Below, one piece after another: positions 40,141 to 56,980 of a DNA stretch of 64,000 nucleotides. This stretch comes from Choanephora cucurbitarum (taxonomy: Eukaryota; Mucoromycota; Mucoromycetes; Mucorales; Choanephoraceae). The stretch is from NCBI GenBank assembly GCA_025331435.1, contig JAIWNI010000049.1:124001-188000 (forward strand), in the 5' to 3' direction. Both the position numbers and the translations under genes were made by a program. The notes under the pieces were generated by a model, which saw only the letters and a program-made list of their open reading frames with translations, made no database searches and was not told where the DNA came from. The first letter of the stretch is position 1, and every line of letters starts with the position of its first letter.

Positions 40141-40507
40141 TACAGTCAAACCTATTTTTTTTTAAAAAATGGTTTTTATTTGTTGCACGTATCAATTAGG
40201 AAAATTGAAAGCGGTGCTCAACAATTGAATGGATAATAAAAGTAGAGAAAAAGTGTGACTAGACTAGGTGATAGGGAGACAAATAAAATAAAAAAAGGTT
40301 TAAAAATTATTCTTCAACAAGGGAATCTTCAGAGTGCCTGCGCTGGATTGCGAGGCGAAGATTACGAAAAGCAACAGGGGCAGGGAACGGTATCTTCTCA
40401 AATATTCCAAGCCAACGCACCTTCCAGTCAAACCTATTGAAATTGGCGTTTTCGAAAAAACGAATGGCCAAAGTTGAAAAACGATTGGCCCAAGTGGAAA
40501 AATGATT
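40141..40507. repeat. Repeat X, copy 1 (transposon-end-like), split by a LINE fragment
   Basis: Begins TACAGTCAAACCTATT at 40141. It is interrupted by a LINE tail (40157-40424), then resumes with a duplicate CAGTCAAACCTATT at 40425 and continues to about 40507, where the MULE terminal repeat begins. Related stretches occur at 46896/52702 and, inverted, at 56921-56980. Starting with CAGT next to a TA dinucleotide is typical of Tc1/mariner-class ends, which suggests the origin, but no matching transposase is present here. Confidence 0.75.
40157..40424 (-). mobile_element. 5'-truncated LINE tail inserted in repeat X
   Basis: A 268-bp insertion whose T-run at the left is the poly(A) of a minus-strand LINE copy. 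Reading the minus strand, it begins inside a coding end (a frame finishing RRHSEDSLVEE), followed by a 3' UTR. It shares two blocks with the large LINE's 3' UTR: AAGCGGTGCTCAACAA (40209-40224) and TTTTATTTGTTGCACGTAT (to 40192). The 14-bp CAGTCAAACCTATT on both sides is the target-site duplication. The coding end differs from the large LINE, so this is a related but distinct lineage. Confidence 0.8.
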
Positions 40508-40508
40508 G

Positions 40509-40588
40509 ATTAAAGTTCCGCGCACCAAGGTTTTGTCAAATGTCTACGTAGGCATTTGAACAGCCAATAATATTCGAGTATTTTGGTA
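40509..40588 (+). repeat. MULE terminal inverted repeat, left
   Basis: About 80 bp that matches the reverse complement of 44211-44290 at roughly nine in ten positions by eye. The shared core is ACCAAGGTTTTGTCAAATG, followed by a palindromic TACGTA block and CAGCCAATAATATTCGAG. Confidence 0.85.
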
Positions 40589-40651
40589 CCTGAAGTTTTT
40601 GTTTTTGCTTTTTCGAATTAAACCTTTTTTTCTTTCTGTTATTTTTCTATT

Positions 40652-43554
40652 ATGAACTCTCAAGTATCTTTAGACAACTCTCAACTTACCGTTACCGATT
40701 CTCAAGTAAGACGAATGACGACTAGTGACACTGTCACTTGTGACTGGGATGATTTTAGTGATGCTGAATCACTTGTTTTTGACGAAACTAGAGAGGAAAG
40801 CGAATACGAAGTTGTATCCACCGTCGTTGCCGAATCCTCCAACAACATGAAGGAAGAATTTGGAAAAATCTTCTTTGTAGGTGCCAAGTTCAGAAGCTCA
40901 GACGAGCTTCGTGATAAAGCACAAGCTTTAAGCAAAGGGTTCAATTGCCCAATCACCACTGCTAGAAGTAGCAAGAACAGCTACATCATTTTGCAATGTA
41001 GACATGGCGGTACTTACAGAAAGGCCAAGAAAGTCGAAGCCGACGCTGAGCGAGAAGAAAGCTCCGAGAGTATGTGCTGCATAGAGAATTATAAACGAAA
41101 TGGATTAGCCGAATCATGCGATTGACTGGACTCCTTTTTCATAGATACGAACGAGAGTGGACGACACTATCAATCTGGTAGAAAGCGATGCCCTTTGCGC
41201 ATCTATGCGTCTCTAGGACGCGATACTGAGAGGCCCTGGGAGGTTCGCCAAGTCACTCTTGAGCATAACCATGCTCTTAGCAGTGACTTGTTGACCTATT
41301 CGGTCTTCAGGAAGCTTCTCCCCGAAGATTTCGAAGTGGCTTATAGCATGATGAAGAAAGGAGAAACTCCTAAAAGTGTTTTGAAGGTAAGATGAGCTTC
41401 TTTATGTTATAATTTTTTTATACAGCTATGTTCATTTCGACGATGTTGCATTTGAGATATGAATATCTAGTTGATGGAATGTCTTTTAACACAAAATAAA
41501 AAGAGGAAATAAAGAATAAGTGATTTGATTTCATATCCTTTTCTCGTCTTGTATTATTTTTGCTGCTTCAGACCAGATTCTTTTACTTTTGAATTCGACA
41601 GAATTCCATTTTATTCTTTCATTTGTCAATACTAATATACGCACATCTTACTAGTTGTTGGTAGAAAAGCAAGTTGATAATGGCATCACATTAAGCAATT
41701 TGCATAACACTCAGCAACGCTTCTGCAATGACCAGTTTTCTGGTATGGCTGAGTTCATCTCAGATTTGGAGCAAACTGGGCATCAAGTACGTACCAGAGT
41801 GGACAGTGATGATAAGGTGAATGCTGTCTTCTTCATGCATGAGCATGGAAGGGATGAGCTCAGACGACTCCCTGAAAGTGTCATCATTGATGCAACATAC
41901 AAGACCAACAGCCACCGCATGGTGTTGCTCAACATTGTTGTTGCAGGCACAGTAGCTTCAGAGTATTGCCGAAGCCAACTTGCAACCATCCATGTTGCTG
42001 GATGTTGGATGAGAAAGGAGACTACCGAGTCTTATGAGTGGGCCATGAAGCAACTGAGAAGCATTGCCTGGCCCAGTGGAACTGATCCCAGTCTTCTTCC
42101 TGTCAACTTTGTCACTGATAAGGACCAAGCCTTGATGAATGCTATTAAGGTTGTGTTTCCGGAGTCAAGACACATTTTGTGTTATGTGCACATTGTGCAC
42201 AACTTTATGAAAAGACTCATCAAAAGCATGAGCAAGAAAGTCCAGCTTGGTAATTTAATATTGAATTTTCTTATGAGTAAAGACAACTTATTTTTGCATT
42301 GCTCTTCTTTGTAGACAAAGAAAGCCGCCCTTTGCTGGAAAAGCGATTCAAAGCTATTATTCACAAGATAGCTTTTCAATCCAACACCAAGGAAGCATTG
42401 ATAGGCTTCAAGGATGAGTATGATGCATTTGTCTCTCACGATAATCTTTGCGTTGATAAAGGCAAAGAAATGAAAACATATCTTGACAGGTAATGTGAAT
42501 GAAAATAAGTTTTAGAGCATTTAGCATGAAATTTTCTCACGTTCAAACTTGTATAGCATGATGGCCTTTCGTCGCCATTGGGTTGGCTATTATGTCAACA
42601 CCTATATGCATATGGGCAATCGCACGTCCAACAGAGTCGAAAGTACTCACAGTGGCATTAAACGCCACAACAAGACATCTTCTGGTTCGCTTGGCTTGGT
42701 GACCAAAAAAATTCGCGAATGGGTTGAAGGAAGAGTAAGTTAATTGTTACAATTGTGTCTGGATCAAGTTTGGTTAATTCGCTTTATTTTCAAATACAGG
42801 AAAGCTACAGAAACAGACAAACTGTGCGTGAGTCTTTGTTTGAAACGATCTTGAAGGACAAGACTGGCCATGAAATTGATGACAAGATGAGCCAACTGAG
42901 AGGCAGGATTACCAGCTTTGCCTTTGATCGTATTCGTTTCGAATACATCAATTTGATGGACAACAAAGCTGATCCTGATCATGTCTCTCATGTGGATCCT
43001 ACTACGGGTAAATGCCTTTGCGAATTGCGTAGAGCATACCGTCTTCCTTGCAGACATCGAATTGCAAGATATGATGGTCCTATTCCACTAGCTGCTGTCC
43101 ACAGAAGATGGCATATTATGTATCAAAATGGCAGAGGTTAGTAGATTAGAGTACAGAGTATCAAACAAATGTCCAATATCCTTGTTTTAAAGTTTCTACT
43201 ATTGCTGAAATGACAAATGCCAGCAAGGAGCATGACCCTGAAGAGCATGAAGTCAGAAAGCCTGTAGAGATTCAGTCGCAGAAGCTGCAATATATCAATG
43301 CAGACTTAAAAACTCAAGGAGAAAGAATCAGCTTAGAGGATGAGCTTAGAGCAATCATAAGCAAGTATTCTGATGACAAGCAAGTTGAGCGCATCCTTCC
43401 TCCTCCAATAGTATATGACATCAAAGGTCGTCCTAAAAACACTACCCGAGAAAAAATTGCTTTGGAGAGAGAGATGGACAAAATCGCTCAACTTGCCAAA
43501 CAAGAAAAAGCAAGTCAAATAGAAGTTGCCCAAGGTATTGATGCCAAAAACTGA
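40652..43554 (+). CDS. MULE-type transposase, 768 aa
   Basis: A DDE-class transposase that would excise and insert the element. Seven exons (40652-41069, 41145-41386, 41655-42249, 42315-42489, 42557-42734, 42800-43136, 43193-43554) join in frame. The N-terminal half has a FAR1/WRKY-GCM1-like zinc-binding region: CRHGGTYRKAK, then KRCPLRIYAS and TLEHNHALSSD. The MULE domain shows the first Asp in VIIDATYKTN, the second in FVTDKDQALMNAI, followed by HILCYVHIVHN. The Glu is in RVESTHSGIKRHN. A SWIM-like zinc motif follows (CLCELRRAYRLPCRHRI). The C-terminal tail is charged and helical, with GRPKNTTREK resembling a short DNA-contacting basic stretch. The OTU gene starts 18 bp after the stop. Six introns in a transposase gene are notable but each has good splice sites. 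Confidence 0.9.
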
Positions 43555-43572
43555 AATTAACATAGACACTAA

Positions 43573-44148
43573 ATGGTTGAAGTAGTCCGCCTAGCCATTC
43601 CAATTCCCAAAGGATTGAGTGCCAAGCAAGTGACAGGCCACTTCAATCCTTCACCTGATGGTAATTGTGGCTATAGAGCAATTGCTTATGCCATTTTTGA
43701 TGATGAAGCTAGTTTTGGCAATGTCAAGCATGAGATGCTTTTATGCTTGAGAAAGAATGAGCAATTCTACCGCCAAGTTTTTGGTAGCTCTCCCTCCGCC
43801 TCTGAAGTTCTCTCTGGTACATTTGAAAGTATCCAAAGCAAGCTTAGCAACGACGCTTCAGCAGGTATCACTGATAATTGGTTCCAATCTCCCGAAATGG
43901 TCCAATTAGCAGCAGATACCTTTAGCAGAACTATTGCTTGCTATACGCTTGACAATCAAAGTACCACATCCCCTCCTTACTTTTCCCCTCCCTTCCCTGC
44001 TCGTCCTATTCCTTTGCAACTCTACAGTACTCATTTTTACATTGTAGAGCTCAAGCCCAACTCAAAGCCAAGATGGCCAAGAACTTACCCAGAACACTCC
44101 TTTAACTGCATAAGACACTCTTTAGAAGACTTTTCGCTCATTTATTAA
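43573..44148 (+). CDS. OTU-like cysteine protease carried by the MULE
   Basis: A 191-aa single-exon protein with the OTU signature PSPDGNCGYRAIAYAIF: the Asp and catalytic Cys of DGNC-x-xRA at about 30-37. The likely catalytic His is in STHFYIVEL near 157. OTU proteases remove ubiquitin or related modifiers. In some transposons an accompanying peptidase is thought to process element or host proteins; that role is inferred here. The gene starts 18 bp after the transposase stop and ends within 65 bp of the right inverted repeat, so it clearly belongs to the element. The mid-region is Pro/Ser-rich (SPPYFSPPFPARP). It could be expressed from the same transcript, which would be unusual for a fungal nuclear gene. 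Confidence 0.85.
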   Translation: MVEVVRLAIPIPKGLSAKQVTGHFNPSPDGNCGYRAIAYAIFDDEASFGNVKHEMLLCLRKNEQFYRQVFGSSPSASEVLSGTFESIQSKLSNDASAGITDNWFQSPEMVQLAADTFSRTIACYTLDNQSTTSPPYFSPPFPARPIPLQLYSTHFYIVELKPNSKPRWPRTYPEHSFNCIRHSLEDFSLIY

Positions 44149-44210
44149 TAAAAAAACATATGATGTGAATAAATTATGCCTTTTTTTTAAAATTTATTTT
44201 GAATTCATGC

Positions 44211-44290
44211 ACCAAAAATGCTCGAATATTATTGGCTGTTTATATGCCTACGTAGGCATTTGACAAAACCTTGGTACGCGTAACTTTAAT
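44211..44290 (-). repeat. MULE terminal inverted repeat, right
   Basis: Reverse complement partner of 40509-40588; see that entry for the shared core. It lies 62 bp after the OTU stop codon. Confidence 0.85.
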
Positions 44291-46895: not shown

Positions 46896-46911
46896 TACAG
46901 TCAAACCTATT
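46896..46911. repeat. Repeat X, copy 2, outer end
   Basis: TACAGTCAAACCTATT, directly followed by the T-run of the LINE. The other side of this copy resumes at 52702. Confidence 0.75.
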
Positions 46912-47057
46912 TTTTTTTTTTTTAAATGAGTTTTATTTGTTGCACGTATTCGGAGATGTAAAACTACGAAAAGCGGTGCTCAACAATTAGGAGGTAAAAG
47001 AAATAAACTTATTTTTGTAAAAGTATCGATGGAGTTGTGAGTAGGAAAGGATAACTA

Positions 47058-50000
47058 CTAGAAATTAGCAGAGTCAGAGAGGAACGAGCGCTCGGCGAGG
47101 TGGCGCTCGACTTGCCAGCGAGTTTGCTGAAGAACTGCGGTATACACGAAGGCAGTGTCATTGAAGATGAAGAGCCAATGAGCACGCCAAACTTCGGATA
47201 GGGCGATGATGAGAAGGTAGCTCGCTTCAACACGAGAGGAAGGCAAACAACGAATGTTGGAGAAATTCAGGGTGGAGAGGGCAGAGAAGATAAGATCAAT
47301 AGTCGTATCAGGCCACAGAAATTCACGGATAAGATGGTCCCAGAAGAGAAACTTCGGCGGGCATCGAAAGAAAAAGTGAAAAATGTCCTCGATATCAGAA
47401 CAAAGGAGGCAGCTTGGTGGCGAGTTGAGGGAGCGAGAAAGGAAAAGGCGTGTGGGGACTTTTTGGAAAATGAGACGAAAAACAGTGTTCCGCTGGATGG
47501 TTGAGAGGGCGAGAGCCCAGAAGCGCTGCCATGAGGCTGTGGTCATGTGAGGTAAGAGGAGGAGGCGGCTGCTCGAATGCAAAGTGACCAAATGGCGGAA
47601 AGCTCTGGACGCTGATTTGGCAGAGGCAAAATGTTGGTCATCCTCGCGAATAAAAAGCCTGTGTTTGAAGGCAAAGAGGTCCAGGGAGCGACGGATTACA
47701 GGTACATGAAAAGGGTTGTAGAGGTTCAAAGAAGAGCGGGTCAAGCATTGAGAGAAAACTGGTTCTAATAGGCAAGTATTGTTGGCCAAGGCTCGGTGAA
47801 GCTTACCACTGACCGTGCGGATAGGTACAGGGAGGTCTTCTCTAGGGATGGGTGTTAGATAGTGGCCAAGAGGGTGATAACGGTACAAGTCGGAGACCAG
47901 GGCATCGCGGAGGATGGGAGACAGGCGAAACGTTGTACTGGGAATCACAACAGCTCGAAGTGGTAGGACTAGGCATTCAAGAGGGTTGGGAATGTAAGTG
48001 AACTGGCGACGAGGTATGAGATCCATCACACGACAGACCAATGAGGTAGTAGTCAGGCTTGTGCCAGGGGTAACATTAGGCCGAGCTCGAGGGAAAAGGA
48101 GACCGACGAGTGGCTGGGAAGTGTGGAAGGCGTTGCTGAGATGGGCATGAAGAAAGTCATGCACTACAGAGTGGTCTGTGCGGGGGAAAAGAAGAGGGTC
48201 AAGCCATCGATAGTAGAGGGCGGACTGCTGTAGTTCAGGATCCAAAAGCCCTAGACCACCAAATTTCTTTGAGGCTGTCAAAACATGCCAACCAAGTCGG
48301 GGGAAGATGCGGCGATTTATGAACGAGGATACTAATGAGCGTAATGTTTGCAAAGTCGATTTGGGAATGGGAAGTACGCGAAACAGGAACCAGCACTTAG
48401 AAAGTATGAGGGAATTGATAACGGTAGCCCGACCCAAGACGGAGAGGGAACGACAAGAGTGCAAGTCGGCGTCTCTCTTCAGGCAAAATAAAAATTCCGC
48501 AAGGAAGAGGTCTCGTTGAGCTTTCGATTGGATAAGAGGGAAGCCCAAGTAGATGAGAGGGGAGGGGTCGTGAGTAGTCCAAACCTTAGAAATCTGAATC
48601 GATTGTAAAGAAGAGAGCCAGTACTCATCGATTTGTCTGCCAGAGAGGGAGAAAGCTCGGACCTTGTGGAAGTTAATTTTTGCATTAGATGCTGCACAGT
48701 ACAAGTCTAAATGAGACAAGAGGCAAGTTAGATCGCTGCGATCTCGGAGAAATACAAGAGTGTCGTCCGCGTAACTCAGCAACTTGATATTGGGAAGCAA
48801 GGTGGTGCCAGCAGTGCGATGCCTAAAGGAATAGCCATTGAAGGATGGGTCTTGTAATAGGGCGCGCAGAAGTGGTTCTAAGGCAAAGTTGTACAAGATA
48901 CACGAGAGTGGATCTCCTTGCTTTAAACCACGTAGTTTAGGGACTAGAGTAGGCGCAAGGTGTCCATTCAAATTTATCTGGATTTTGTTTTGGCCGAAAA
49001 GAGTGATGATTGAGTGGATCAGAGGAGGTGGGAAAGCGAGAGATGTGAGGACAGTTTGGAGGAACTGCAGGTTAACTCGATCATACGCCTTCTCTTGGTC
49101 TAGAAGCAAGCCAATATCTGTTGAGGAAGACGGAGAGAGGAGAGAAGCATTTTCCATCAAGATAGTCGTAAGCATGCCATGGTCAGCAATGAAACGGCCA
49201 GGCATAAATCCCAATTGATGACGGTTGATAAGAGAATCAGCGACAGACAAAATACGTGCATTTACGATTCGGGTAAATATCTTATTATCGGTGTTGACTA
49301 GTTGAATGGGGCGGTAGTTGGCAGCTTGTGTGAGATCACCCTTCTTTGGAAGCAAGGTCATGAGAGATAACATCCAAGAAGCTGGAAAACTAGCGTTATT
49401 CAAGGCCTCGTTATAAATCCGCAGGACTAAAGGGCGTAAGATTGGTAGGCGAAGAAGTATGCCAAGAATCTCATAGGGTAAGCCATCAGACCCTGGGCTA
49501 CTCTTACGAGGGGAACGCCGGCTGGCCTGGGAGATTTCGTCCCAAGCGATAGGAGCAATCAGTACAGCCTGCTGCTCTGGAGACAAAAAGGTACCATCCA
49601 AACTAGAGACTAATGTACGAGTGGCAGCTTCATCCGGGTCGGTGGGGTTATACAAGTGCGTATAAAAATCAGTCATCACGGTCGTTTTGGCGTCAGTAGA
49701 AAAAACTAAGCGGGAGGTAGTGGGACTCCAGAGGGAAGGGATATCTCTTTGGTCAGCACGAGAGCAAACCAACCGCTTGAGTAAACCGGGCGATTTTTCA
49801 CCATTTTCTTTCCAATATTTGCCCGCCTGAAGAGCAGAGATCTCTGCAATCTCGGTTTGTAGAGAAGAGATGAGCTTTTCGAGGGAAGGGAGGAGAGTAG
49901 ACCAAATGGCGGTATGGCGGTATTGCCGGAAGATTCGGTTTCGCTTCGATTGAAGTTTCTTCAGCGATTTTGTGCGCCACGAGTTGCGATCCAGCTGAAA

Positions 50001-51339
50001 CGCTTTTGCAAAACCTTTGACCTCAACCTTCAAAGCATCCCATATGGCCTGTTCGGACAAGATGCATGCAGGAGAAAGGTACTGGTGTTTTTCGATCACT
50101 TGTAGGAGATGATCGATCAGGCTAGAGCGAAAGGTAGGGATTTTTGCAAGCATTGGATTGGCTTTCCAAGCACCAGGACCTCGAGAGGCCGTGGAGGTAC
50201 GGAAAGAGACAGAAAGGAGGTTGTGATCAGTCCAGGCATAGTTTACAAACTCCTGAGTAGGAGACCTAATCCGGGAGCTATGAGCTATGGAACAAAACAT
50301 ATAGTCGAGCAAATGATGGGTGCCACGTGTACTGGTGAAGGTGGGTAGGGGTTCACCCATAAAGCAGTTGTCAAAGTTGTCTCGTAAGAGGGAGAGCCAA
50401 TCCGAGTTGATGGACCCGGGCTGGCGTTGATCGTAATTAAAATCTCCCATCATGAGAATGGGGAGGTTGTTAGAGCGAAGGAAGGTCATAAGGCTGGTGT
50501 CCTGAATCAAGTCTTGAAAAAAGATGATACGAGTACTAGATTCAGCTGGAGCATAGATATTTAAGATATAGAATATAGGAGTAAGGGAAGCGGTTGAGGC
50601 AACTGTGGTGTTTTGTATGTTTAAAGAATAGGAAAAAAGGGACAAGAGGATACGATGAGACTTTTCTTTATTCTGAAAGTAAAGATGCTGTTCTAAAGTT
50701 AGATATTTCTATTCTTTATATACTAATTGATTTTCATGAATTCAATTGTGATGACTGATTATATGATTACTTAAGAATTGACAGCTTGTGCCTGGGAAAG
50801 GAACATTAATTCTCCTTAATTCTCCTTTGGTTACATTATCTGCCATTTATGATTTCCTTATGTGGATTATTCTTTATTATCCCAGCTACCGCTGCTTAAT
50901 AGATTTATTCAGTCATTATTCCTTTATACATTATTCAGATTCTTATATATGCTTATTCATAGTAGATAAACTAGTGAGAAGATTTATTATTTGATCATTC
51001 ATTTGTATTTTATGAGAAGTAGACTCAGATCACCACAGCAACTGAGGCAAGAATGAAACGGCCATCAGGGCGGGAGATATCAGGATGAGAAGAGAGTAGA
51101 ATATTGGGATTTAGGGAAACGATCCCACAGTGAGGCGTCCAAATACTGGACTTAGTTTGAAGGGAAATGTTTAGAGATTGCTTAATGAGATCGGAATGAG
51201 CATGGGTTTCTTGGAAGGAAAATATGTCGATGTTTAAGGAGCGTAGATAACGGGAAAAGGAACGAAATTTGGCTGGATTACCAGTTTTTGGTAGGCCACG
51301 ACAATTGAGTGTGGCAATTTGAACTATGTTCAAACTCAT
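47058..51339 (-). CDS. LINE ORF2: APE endonuclease and reverse transcriptase
   Basis: Nicks target DNA and reverse-transcribes the element RNA. Two coding blocks (51339-51034 and 50672-47058) read in frame if 50673-51033 is removed, giving 1305 aa. The endonuclease shows LNCRG, FQETHA, IYAPAE, GDFN, HLLDYMF and WTDHNLL. The RT follows with PGSDGLPYEIL, LLPKKGDLTQAANYRPI, LGFMPGRFIADHG, LLDQEKAYDRV, GLKQGDPLS and the catalytic SYADDT. The C-terminus carries a zinc-binding CLLCSDIEDIFHFFFRC motif and no RNase H that I can see, which fits the L1/Tx1-like side of the LINE tree more than Tad1; this is inference. The start codon overlaps the ORF1 stop (TAATG). Confidence 0.88.
50673..51033 (-). other. 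Intron-like 361-bp segment inside LINE endonuclease
   Basis: Very AT-rich compared with the LINE. On the minus strand it begins GTGATC after ASVAV and ends CTTTACTTTCAG before NKEKSHR, with a CTAAC branch-site-like string about 25-30 bases upstream of the AG. Removing it restores a phase-0 ORF2; leaving it in introduces a stop within two codons. It is either a true spliceosomal intron, an intron-mimicking insertion, or a chance insertion that kills the element. Confidence 0.65.
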
Positions 51340-52700
51340 TATTTGTCAGATGAAGGAGGGGCTGAAAGGGAATCGGATGAACCCTGACTATTATGAGCCC
51401 TGTTCTCAGTATTACGCGCTGTTTTCTGACGCTTCGCAGCATCTTTAGTTTGCTCCTTATCTACGACCATATCGTCCGTAAAATCTTCTGATGATCGGAA
51501 ATGGTCAACTGTTGCTTGACGTGCTGCTGCTAATGTGTCAAAGTCGGACGGCAAATTATGGATCTCCTCAGTTCCAGTGGATGTGCCTAAATGGTCTGCA
51601 ACTGTATGCTCGCGATGGGGATCCACCTGCATTGGATCGGAGTGCGTGCTGCTCCTAGCTGTTGAATCCAAAGCCGGAGAGGGTGCATCCTCGTTCTTCC
51701 TGTCCAATTGAGGAATGGCTTCAGTTTCCTTAACTTTGGCAGTGGGTTCCCGGTGCTTAGGTGTGTGGCTAACAGCAACGCGTTTGTGGGGAGGAGCGAT
51801 ACCATGACCGCGGCGAGGGCAATCGCGACTGATGTGTCCCCGTTCGTTACAGTGGAAACATAGGATACTAGCAAAAATCTCCGGGCAATCCGCACGGCAG
51901 TGTCCTTCTTTCTGACAAGCACGGCAGAAGAGGGGCATTTTCTCGAAGGAGAGTAAAACTGGTGGTTCATCATCATACCACGAAACTTCGCGGCAGAGGA
52001 TCTCAGGTTTGGTGGCATGTGGCTTGCTCAAATTGAGGATCACCCAGCCGTCGCCTTCAAAGACGCCATGCTGGGTTTGAAGGCATACATCCAGAACTTC
52101 TCCGAAATGTGCAAAACGTTGCAACATTTGTTCTCTCAAACGGAGAGGGTGGATCAAGGGTAATCGTTCAATCCGTACTCTCGTTACATTGGCATCAGCG
52201 GGTAAACTCTTATAACCCTTAACAACAGTGCCATCTGGGAGAGTGATACCGTCCTCTAAAAGTTGTCGGTATTCATCACATTCGACATCCCAGGTGGTTT
52301 CGTAGAAACGACGTCGAAGGTAATTACGTTCGACTTTCACTCCACCAAAAAACTTAAAATCTTTATCTGTGTTCAAAGAAGCAAAATAGGACTTCAAGGG
52401 GATGAGGTCTTGGATTTTAGTTGTCTCAATCAAAACACTGTTTTTTGCGAGCCCGGGTATGAAAGGGCGGATAGTGTCATGAAGGACATCATCTACTTGT
52501 GGTGCAAACTTGGAAGCTGATGAGCCCAAGTTGGGCTGGGAAGACGTGACGGGTGCCGTCCTGTTGGAAGGAAGACACGATCTGATCGTCGAAGCTGAAG
52601 CGACCTGAGACCAGGAGCGCGATTTTGCATTTGTTCCTCGACGACTGGTGTTGGTGCCTGAAGTCGAGTTATGGGTCGATTTTTTAGGTGAAAGAGCCAT
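51339..52700 (-). CDS. LINE ORF1: RNA-binding protein with two CCHC knuckles
   Basis: A 453-aa protein that would package the LINE RNA. The middle has a DUF4283/RRM-like fold region (RIERLPLIHPLRLREQML ... GWVILNLSKP, about 170-235). Two CCHC zinc knuckles follow: CRACQKEGHCRADC and CFHCNERGHISRDC (about 260-295). The ends are Ser/Thr-rich and charged. The stop overlaps the ORF2 start as TAATG at 51337-51341, suggesting coupled termination and restart. The ATG at 52698-52700 is essentially the first base of the inserted element. Confidence 0.88.
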   Translation of the reverse strand: MALSPKKSTHNSTSGTNTSRRGTNAKSRSWSQVASASTIRSCLPSNRTAPVTSSQPNLGSSASKFAPQVDDVLHDTIRPFIPGLAKNSVLIETTKIQDLIPLKSYFASLNTDKDFKFFGGVKVERNYLRRRFYETTWDVECDEYRQLLEDGITLPDGTVVKGYKSLPADANVTRVRIERLPLIHPLRLREQMLQRFAHFGEVLDVCLQTQHGVFEGDGWVILNLSKPHATKPEILCREVSWYDDEPPVLLSFEKMPLFCRACQKEGHCRADCPEIFASILCFHCNERGHISRDCPRRGHGIAPPHKRVAVSHTPKHREPTAKVKETEAIPQLDRKNEDAPSPALDSTARSSTHSDPMQVDPHREHTVADHLGTSTGTEEIHNLPSDFDTLAAARQATVDHFRSSEDFTDDMVVDKEQTKDAAKRQKTARNTENRAHNSQGSSDSLSAPPSSDK

Positions 52701-52701
52701 G

Positions 52702-52878
52702 AGTCAAACCTATTGAAATTGGTGTGTTTCGAAAAAATAAATGGCGGAAACTCAAAAATGAATGGCCAAAGTTGAAAAATGAGTGGCCCAAGTGGAAAAA
52801 TGATTTGTCCTTTAGTCTGTAGACAAATGTCCATAAGTGCTGAATTGACTTGGTGCAAAACCAGTTGGTTTGACTCTA
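52702..52878. repeat. Repeat X, copy 2, inner part
   Basis: Resumes AGTCAAACCTATTGAAATTG after the LINE. It shares GAATGGCCAAAGTTGAAAAA and GTGGCCCAAGTGGAAAAATG-type blocks with copy 1 up to about 52805, then differs. It ends near 52864-52878 with GGTTTGACTCTA, which is nearly the inverse of the outer end TACAGTCAAACC. The unit may therefore be a roughly 180-bp miniature element with short inverted ends and a TA duplication. Confidence 0.6.
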
Positions 52879-56920: not shown

Positions 56921-56980
56921 ATTTTTCAACTTTGGCCATTCATTTTTTCAAAAACGCCAATTTCAATAGGTTTGACTGTA
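56921..56980 (-). repeat. Repeat X, copy 3, inverted and uninterrupted
   Basis: On the minus strand this reads TACAGTCAAACCTATTGAAA and continues through GAATGGCCAAAGTTGAAAAA for about 60 bp, then stops at the VPS8 fragment. It is the empty version of the site where the other two copies carry LINE sequence, and it faces copy 2 in inverted orientation. Confidence 0.75.

Follow-up and report, generated by a model that had tools for sequence, protein, structure and literature searches.

Two LINE insertions at one base of a Tc1/mariner-like transposon end in Choanephora cucurbitarum, among relatives that lie mostly elsewhere

In a 64,000-nucleotide stretch of the genome of the fungus Choanephora cucurbitarum, here called the window (contig C302, positions 124001-188000, in a 33.4-Mb assembly of 357 contigs), two long interspersed nuclear elements (LINEs) are inserted at the same base, and in the same orientation, of two separate copies of a repeat, X, which is the end of a Tc1/mariner-like DNA transposon. 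The initial annotation of this stretch proposed from this arrangement that the LINEs insert sequence-specifically into X. We have searched this one genome, in which all copy counts are to be taken as lower bounds, and find that most relatives of the two LINEs lie outside X. The two insertions are probably ordinary target-primed events by L1-clade LINEs of relaxed specificity, of the Grem-LINE1 kind, nested in transposon-rich DNA.

Two LINEs at one base of X

The large LINE is bracketed by copies of AGTCAAACCTATT at 46899-46911 and 52702-52714, a 13-bp target-site duplication lying inside X as originally described, and the LINE proper occupies ~46912-52701 (Table 1). The short LINE, at 40157-40424, is bracketed by copies of CAGTCAAACCTATT (40143-40156 and 40425-40438). 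The duplication at both X sites is thus 13-14 bp long and reads (C)AGTCAAACCTATT. In each case the 3' poly(A) of the LINE, a T-run on the + strand, follows immediately after the CCTATT of X, and at the far end of each LINE X continues as GAAATTGG (from 52715 at the large LINE). The two sites differ in their outer flanks and in the inner sequence of X, so that we are dealing with two insertions in two separate X copies. The earlier claim that a second LINE shares the base, orientation and duplication of the first therefore stands, as does the description of X copy 3, on the minus strand at 56921-56978, as an unoccupied site.

The short LINE resembles the large one only at the 3' end, where 75 bp match with 79% identity. 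The short LINE is 94% identical to a copy on C301 and about 92-93% identical to one on C202 (over 256-262 bp), and the protein of this group, lineage B, is ~36-49% identical, in the part of it available, to that of the group of the large LINE, lineage A. Judged by these comparisons the two LINEs belong to different lineages, in agreement with the initial annotation. The start of the duplication at the short copy is ambiguous by 2 bp. The related C202 copy reads CACCTTC-CA-TAC, so the CA at the short copy may belong either to the LINE or to the target, and the position of the second nick there would be blurred by these two bases common to both.

X as the end of a Tc1/mariner-like transposon

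X ends start with TA|CAGTCAAACC. Genome-wide there are 50 such ends with up to 3 mismatches and none in the reversed control; within the window the X 22-mer (up to 3 mismatches) occurs 3 times, against a mean of 0.00 in window shuffles. All 50 ends were read. Two are occupied by the LINEs of the window, and TA precedes 44 of the 48 that are free of LINE, leaving 4 without it. On C279, two X ends in facing orientation enclose an element of 1,643 bp with a DDE_3 transposase (E 7.5e-24). Since X bounds an element with inverted ends and a DDE_3 transposase, we identify it, by its sequence features, as the terminal inverted repeat of a TA-duplicating DDE_3 (Tc1/mariner-like) transposon. The host of the LINEs is accordingly the end of a DNA transposon, as had been suggested. 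The idea that X is a LINE-derived flank moving with the element is ruled out: most X ends are LINE-free, and X delimits a transposon with its own transposase.

The four ends lacking TA (on C293, C201, C30 and C296) were compared with the large LINE (tblastx) and with two lineage B stretches (blastn), using 100 bp of flank for each of three of them, and nothing matched at E 0.01. Further elements also interrupt copies of X, among them a Mutator-like element (MULE, at 40509), an GTGGTTCG element and an GGCCGTACG element (several copies, read by eye).

Most copies of the LINEs lie outside X

LINE tails were sought with the motif TTTTATTTGTTGCACGTATT, allowing up to 3 mismatches, which gave 56 matches against 14 in the reversed control. 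Forty-three of the 56 were examined, the other 13 being three-mismatch matches. This yielded 28 distinct verified tails: 26 by a two-box criterion, in which an identical inverted pair on C325 is counted once, together with those on C202 and C337, which were found otherwise. Only two of the 28, both in the window, lie at the CCTATT|GAAA of X; one more abuts a decayed X and 25 are elsewhere. When up to 300 bp before each tail (less for tails whose flanks came from short fetched stretches) was compared with X, the outer 14 bp were found in the two window copies only. The tail abutting a decayed X (L076, C146:127756) sits further in than the window site and has no resolvable duplication. Its left flank resembles X (1 of 500 shuffles scores as high) and matches the outer end over 13 bp at 92%, whilst its right side does not (423 of 500); it is possibly a third insertion in X. 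A tail on C47 (L066) has a weak 30-bp match (80%, E 0.002) to inner X ~80 bp before it and was counted as outside.

Duplications could be resolved for 12 insertions and are 11-17 bp long, a weak 9-bp duplication at C47 being excluded; two of these insertions are at X and 10 elsewhere. Seven of the 10 sites outside X end in T, for example ATTCCATACTTT|AG, TGTCTTCATTTATT|CT, ATTGGCTTATTTC|AC and GAGGCAATTCT|CA. Among five near-identical full-length copies of lineage A, that of the window is in X and those on C179, C351, C30 and C188 are outside it, the C188 copy being judged by its 5' flank alone because of a contig end. Nor was X found in any of 20 sampled 3' ends (~600 bp each) of LINEs of other lineages, drawn from copies at 34-41% protein identity among 39 scored copies of 388 candidates. 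Two of these LINEs, on C324 and C7, have a common flank that is 100% identical over 300 bp, which we read as a duplicated locus rather than repeated targeting, and the 20 ends would then represent 19 loci.

Because tails (25 of 28), resolved insertions (10 of 12) and full-length copies (4 of 5) are mostly outside X, X is not an obligatory target of these LINEs. The proposal of sequence-specific insertion is not borne out by the measure suggested for it, the fraction of LINE 3' junctions at X, which comes to 2 of 28 with one more abutting decayed X. That most copies of the family lie elsewhere is also the outcome that had been named beforehand as refuting it.

Searches aimed directly at further junctions gave a similar picture. 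CAGTCAAACCTATT followed by six T has exact matches in the genome at the two window sites only. With up to 3 mismatches, CAGTCAAACCTATTTTTTTT gave 76 matches against 38 in the reversed control, the 2 exact ones being the window sites; no X-LINE junction was seen in the 17 of the 74 inexact matches that were read by eye, and those on C313 and C314 are plain X ends. At C146:13552, the most X-like of them and preceded by TA, a scan of 3 kb found no second copy of the putative duplication, no significant LINE-protein match and no inner X. Two narrower patterns linked the CAAACCTATT box to the LINE tail: the first found the two window sites only, and the second these sites, the C301 copy and a match on C331 without a LINE tail in the matched letters.

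Table 1 Positions in the window of the LINEs, the X copies and the associated elements
Feature	Position	Strand	Evidence or remarks
Large LINE (lineage A), 3' poly(A) left, 5' end right	46912..52701	-	Junctions read; near-identical copies on C179, C30, C351, C188
Outer 14 bp of X; left duplication of large LINE (duplicated part 46899-46911)	46898..46911	+	
Right duplication of large LINE, beginning of inner X	52702..52714	+	
Rest of X terminal inverted repeat at large LINE (inner limit approximate)	52702..52865	+	
Short LINE (lineage B), 5'-truncated	40157..40424	-	Relatives on C301, C202
Left duplication of short LINE	40143..40156	+	
Right duplication of short LINE and rest of X copy, cut by MULE at 40509	40425..40508	+	
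X copy 3, unoccupied, short terminal fragment	56921..56978	-	
LINE ORF1, 453 aa, zinc knuckle; ATG is the element's first codon	51339..52700	-	PF00098, E 4e-8
LINE ORF2, N-terminal part (APE-type endonuclease), interrupted	51025..51339	-	PF03372, E 8.6e-5, below curated cut-off
LINE ORF2, remainder: endonuclease rest, reverse transcriptase, C-terminal zinc finger	47058..50645	-	RVT_1, E 2e-30
434-bp TG...CA insert within ORF2, GTTGC duplicated	50604..51037		Without counterpart in C179 copy
MULE-type DNA transposon adjoining X	40509..44290	+	76-bp inverted ends, 92% complementary; MULE transposase domain
ORF, open reading frame; APE, apurinic/apyrimidinic endonuclease.

Structure and identity of the large LINE

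In the large LINE, the matches to RVT_1 (2e-30) and zf-CCHC (4e-8) are above the curated cut-off, and those of ORF2 to Exo_endo_phos (E 8.6e-5) and zf-RVT (E 2.8e-5) are below it. The closest solved structure to ORF2 is human LINE-1 ORF2p (E 3e-42). The best named protein relatives, among 83 passing proteins from 7,989 candidates scored, are from Parasitella, Rhizopus, Choanephora and Mucor, that is, from Mucorales, and PF03372 and PF13966 are annotated in many full-length relatives. Grem-LINE1 elements of Mucoromycotina, including Mucor, are described as L1-like, with a PF00098 zinc finger, an AP endonuclease, the reverse transcriptase domain PF00078 and zf-RVT PF13966 distributed over ORF1 and ORF2, and as abundant in pericentric regions (PMC7377519). 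The window LINE has the corresponding domains when compared with this description, two of them below the curated cut-offs. By its domains the large LINE would therefore be placed as an L1-clade, Grem-LINE1-like element, the L1 affinity being read from search rankings in which human LINE-1 comes first among solved structures. The group also has the 3' poly(A) and the duplications of ~10-17 bp expected of such an element, as seen in the 12 resolved insertions.

A TG...CA insert of 434 bp, accompanied by the 5-bp duplication GTTGC and probably a solo long terminal repeat, interrupts the endonuclease part of ORF2 in the window copy. It had gone unremarked in the initial annotation, and the C179 copy is without it. 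The copies on C30 and C351 are 5.3 kb long against 5.8 kb for the window LINE, which indicates that the insert is lacking there too. All five full-length copies (at 52698-52701 in the window, and on C179, C351, C188 and C30) begin at the (C)ATG of ORF1, and the element thus appears to be without a 5' untranslated leader; between its start and the duplication lie extra bases that vary from copy to copy.

Other elements associated with X

Beyond the far end of the MULE at 40509-44290, X does not visibly resume. Two different X copies (L034, C57:231858, and L048, C313:49810) are joined after the same AATGATT by an element starting GTGGTTCGTTCC, a second instance of a common position in X. At C46:94701-98642 an element with GGCCAAGTTGGCGAAACG ends is nested in X, and within this element lies the end of a LINE of another lineage (read by eye). 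Elsewhere in the assembly, the small contigs C205, C252, C275 and C283 carry tandem units of ~3.7-4.2 kb; the one unit read, from C252, has low-complexity open frames only (by eye) and no Rfam match.

Discussion

Human LINE-1 has a relaxed endonuclease that nicks at T-rich sites and is primed through its poly(A). It is the closest solved relative of the window LINE through ORF2p, but differs in its host, and the ORF1 of the window LINE is a CCHC zinc-knuckle protein. By ordinary target priming, the APE-type endonuclease would nick the + strand of the X end at CAAACCTATT|GAAA, between CCTATT and GAAA. The 3' hydroxyl ending in TT would then pair with the LINE poly(A) and prime reverse transcription, and the duplication would arise when the second strand is cut at a distance of 13-14 bp, at the outermost base of the transposon or next to it. 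The two hits in X may be explained by the agreement of its end with the sites, mostly ending in T, that these LINEs use, and by X being multicopy and lying in transposon-rich DNA. In agreement with this, a weak motif derived from the 10 sites outside X ranks the X site among the highest 4.1% of positions in the window, at five times the mean weight.

Several observations weigh against so simple an account. The X site is only 12th of 288 positions within X by motif score. The motif was derived from 10 sites, and three of these, once omitted from it, obtain scores under -5, so that it does not single out this base. From 28 tails, 50 X ends and the motif weighting, 0.0001 insertions are expected at this base, or 0.001 with an assumed tenfold factor for transposon islands. 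The corresponding probability of at least two lies between 5e-9 and 5e-7, uncorrected for other repeat positions; these values refer to one named site, and a pair at any other position in a repeat would also have drawn notice. If insertions at all positions of the 153-bp X stretch are counted, 0.006 to 0.06 are expected, with a probability of 2e-5 to 0.002 for two or more. The same base hit twice therefore exceeds the random-placement model. It is nonetheless possible, though less likely than not, that we see plain coincidence in a transposon nest, where X is struck by many elements and one LINE pair happens to share a base. The MULE, GTGGTTCG and GGCCGTACG interruptions of X fit such a picture, and a rough estimate of the number of repeat positions suggests that one such pair somewhere would not be very unlikely; set against it is the probability of ~5e-7 for this named site even with the tenfold island factor.

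The excess could also reflect a weak preference, by which some lineages, B above all, favour the box CAAACCTWTT|RAAR wherever it occurs, with X ends as frequent but non-exclusive targets and target specificity at an early stage. We regard this as rather unlikely, though the double hit above random placement speaks for it, as does the box itself: CAAACCTATT, with up to 1 mismatch, occurs within 50 bp before 3 of the 28 tails, against a mean of 0.04 and a maximum of 2 in 2000 base shuffles. The third box belongs to a copy of lineage B that lies outside X, at GTCCAAACCTTTT|AAAG on C301, and this site, CAAACCTTTT|AAAG, is close to the CAAACCTATT|GAAA of X. However, the box was defined from the two X sites, without which it precedes 1 of 26 tails, and its frequency in the window (11 occurrences over 128 kb of strand, counting those in X) would itself give ~0.1 in the tail flanks. 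It is present at none of the five other lineage A sites with resolved duplications, and is lacking at a diverged copy (C190:155497) and in the decayed flank of the C202 copy; lineage B has only two resolved sites. We treat the enrichment as a lead for a weak motif preference, not as proof. The broader proposition that fungal L1-type LINEs are drifting towards target specificity, with an endonuclease that favours, non-exclusively, CAAACCTWTT|RAAR as the conserved terminal box of X, seems to us doubtful. True specificity for X, with an endonuclease that recognises the end of the transposon and directs all or most insertions to it, is very improbable. That both lineages share a base and an orientation would suit it, but 26 of the 28 tails are away from this site, 48 of the 50 X ends have no LINE at this base, and the near-identical copies of lineage A on C179, C351, C30 and C188 are flanked by other sequence; as an obligatory target, X is already refuted by the counts of tails, X ends and full-length copies. 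Equally hard to credit is a transposase nick at the X end that primed LINE complementary DNA in an endonuclease-independent insertion. The duplication does start at or beside the transposon's outermost base, but the priming nick is 14 bp inside the end, away from the known cleavage positions of mariner transposases, and insertions outside X have the same anatomy.

Two ordinary insertions by LINEs of relaxed specificity thus remain our preferred reading, and it sets these elements apart from the systems they first call to mind. Tx1L of Xenopus is a LINE in the DNA transposon Tx1D, and the R1 and R2 LINEs have strict targets in ribosomal DNA. The window LINE resembles the former as an APE-type LINE inside a DNA transposon, and would resemble the latter in target-primed insertion at a repeated sequence, but most copies of its group lie outside X and it shows no such target exclusivity. 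A target-specific LINE of either type would have most copies at one target, and here the number is 2 of 28. The Tx group of LINEs is described as target-specific (PMC3747384). Among the matches listed from the open-access literature (titles and starts of abstracts), none described a fungal LINE that targets a DNA transposon.

The locus is an example of nested transposons in a fungal genome, in which two insertions at the same base resemble targeting until the other copies are counted. If the weak preference were true, these LINEs would stand between relaxed and strict target choice, with a target that is itself a mobile element, and the change in the endonuclease would be directly testable.

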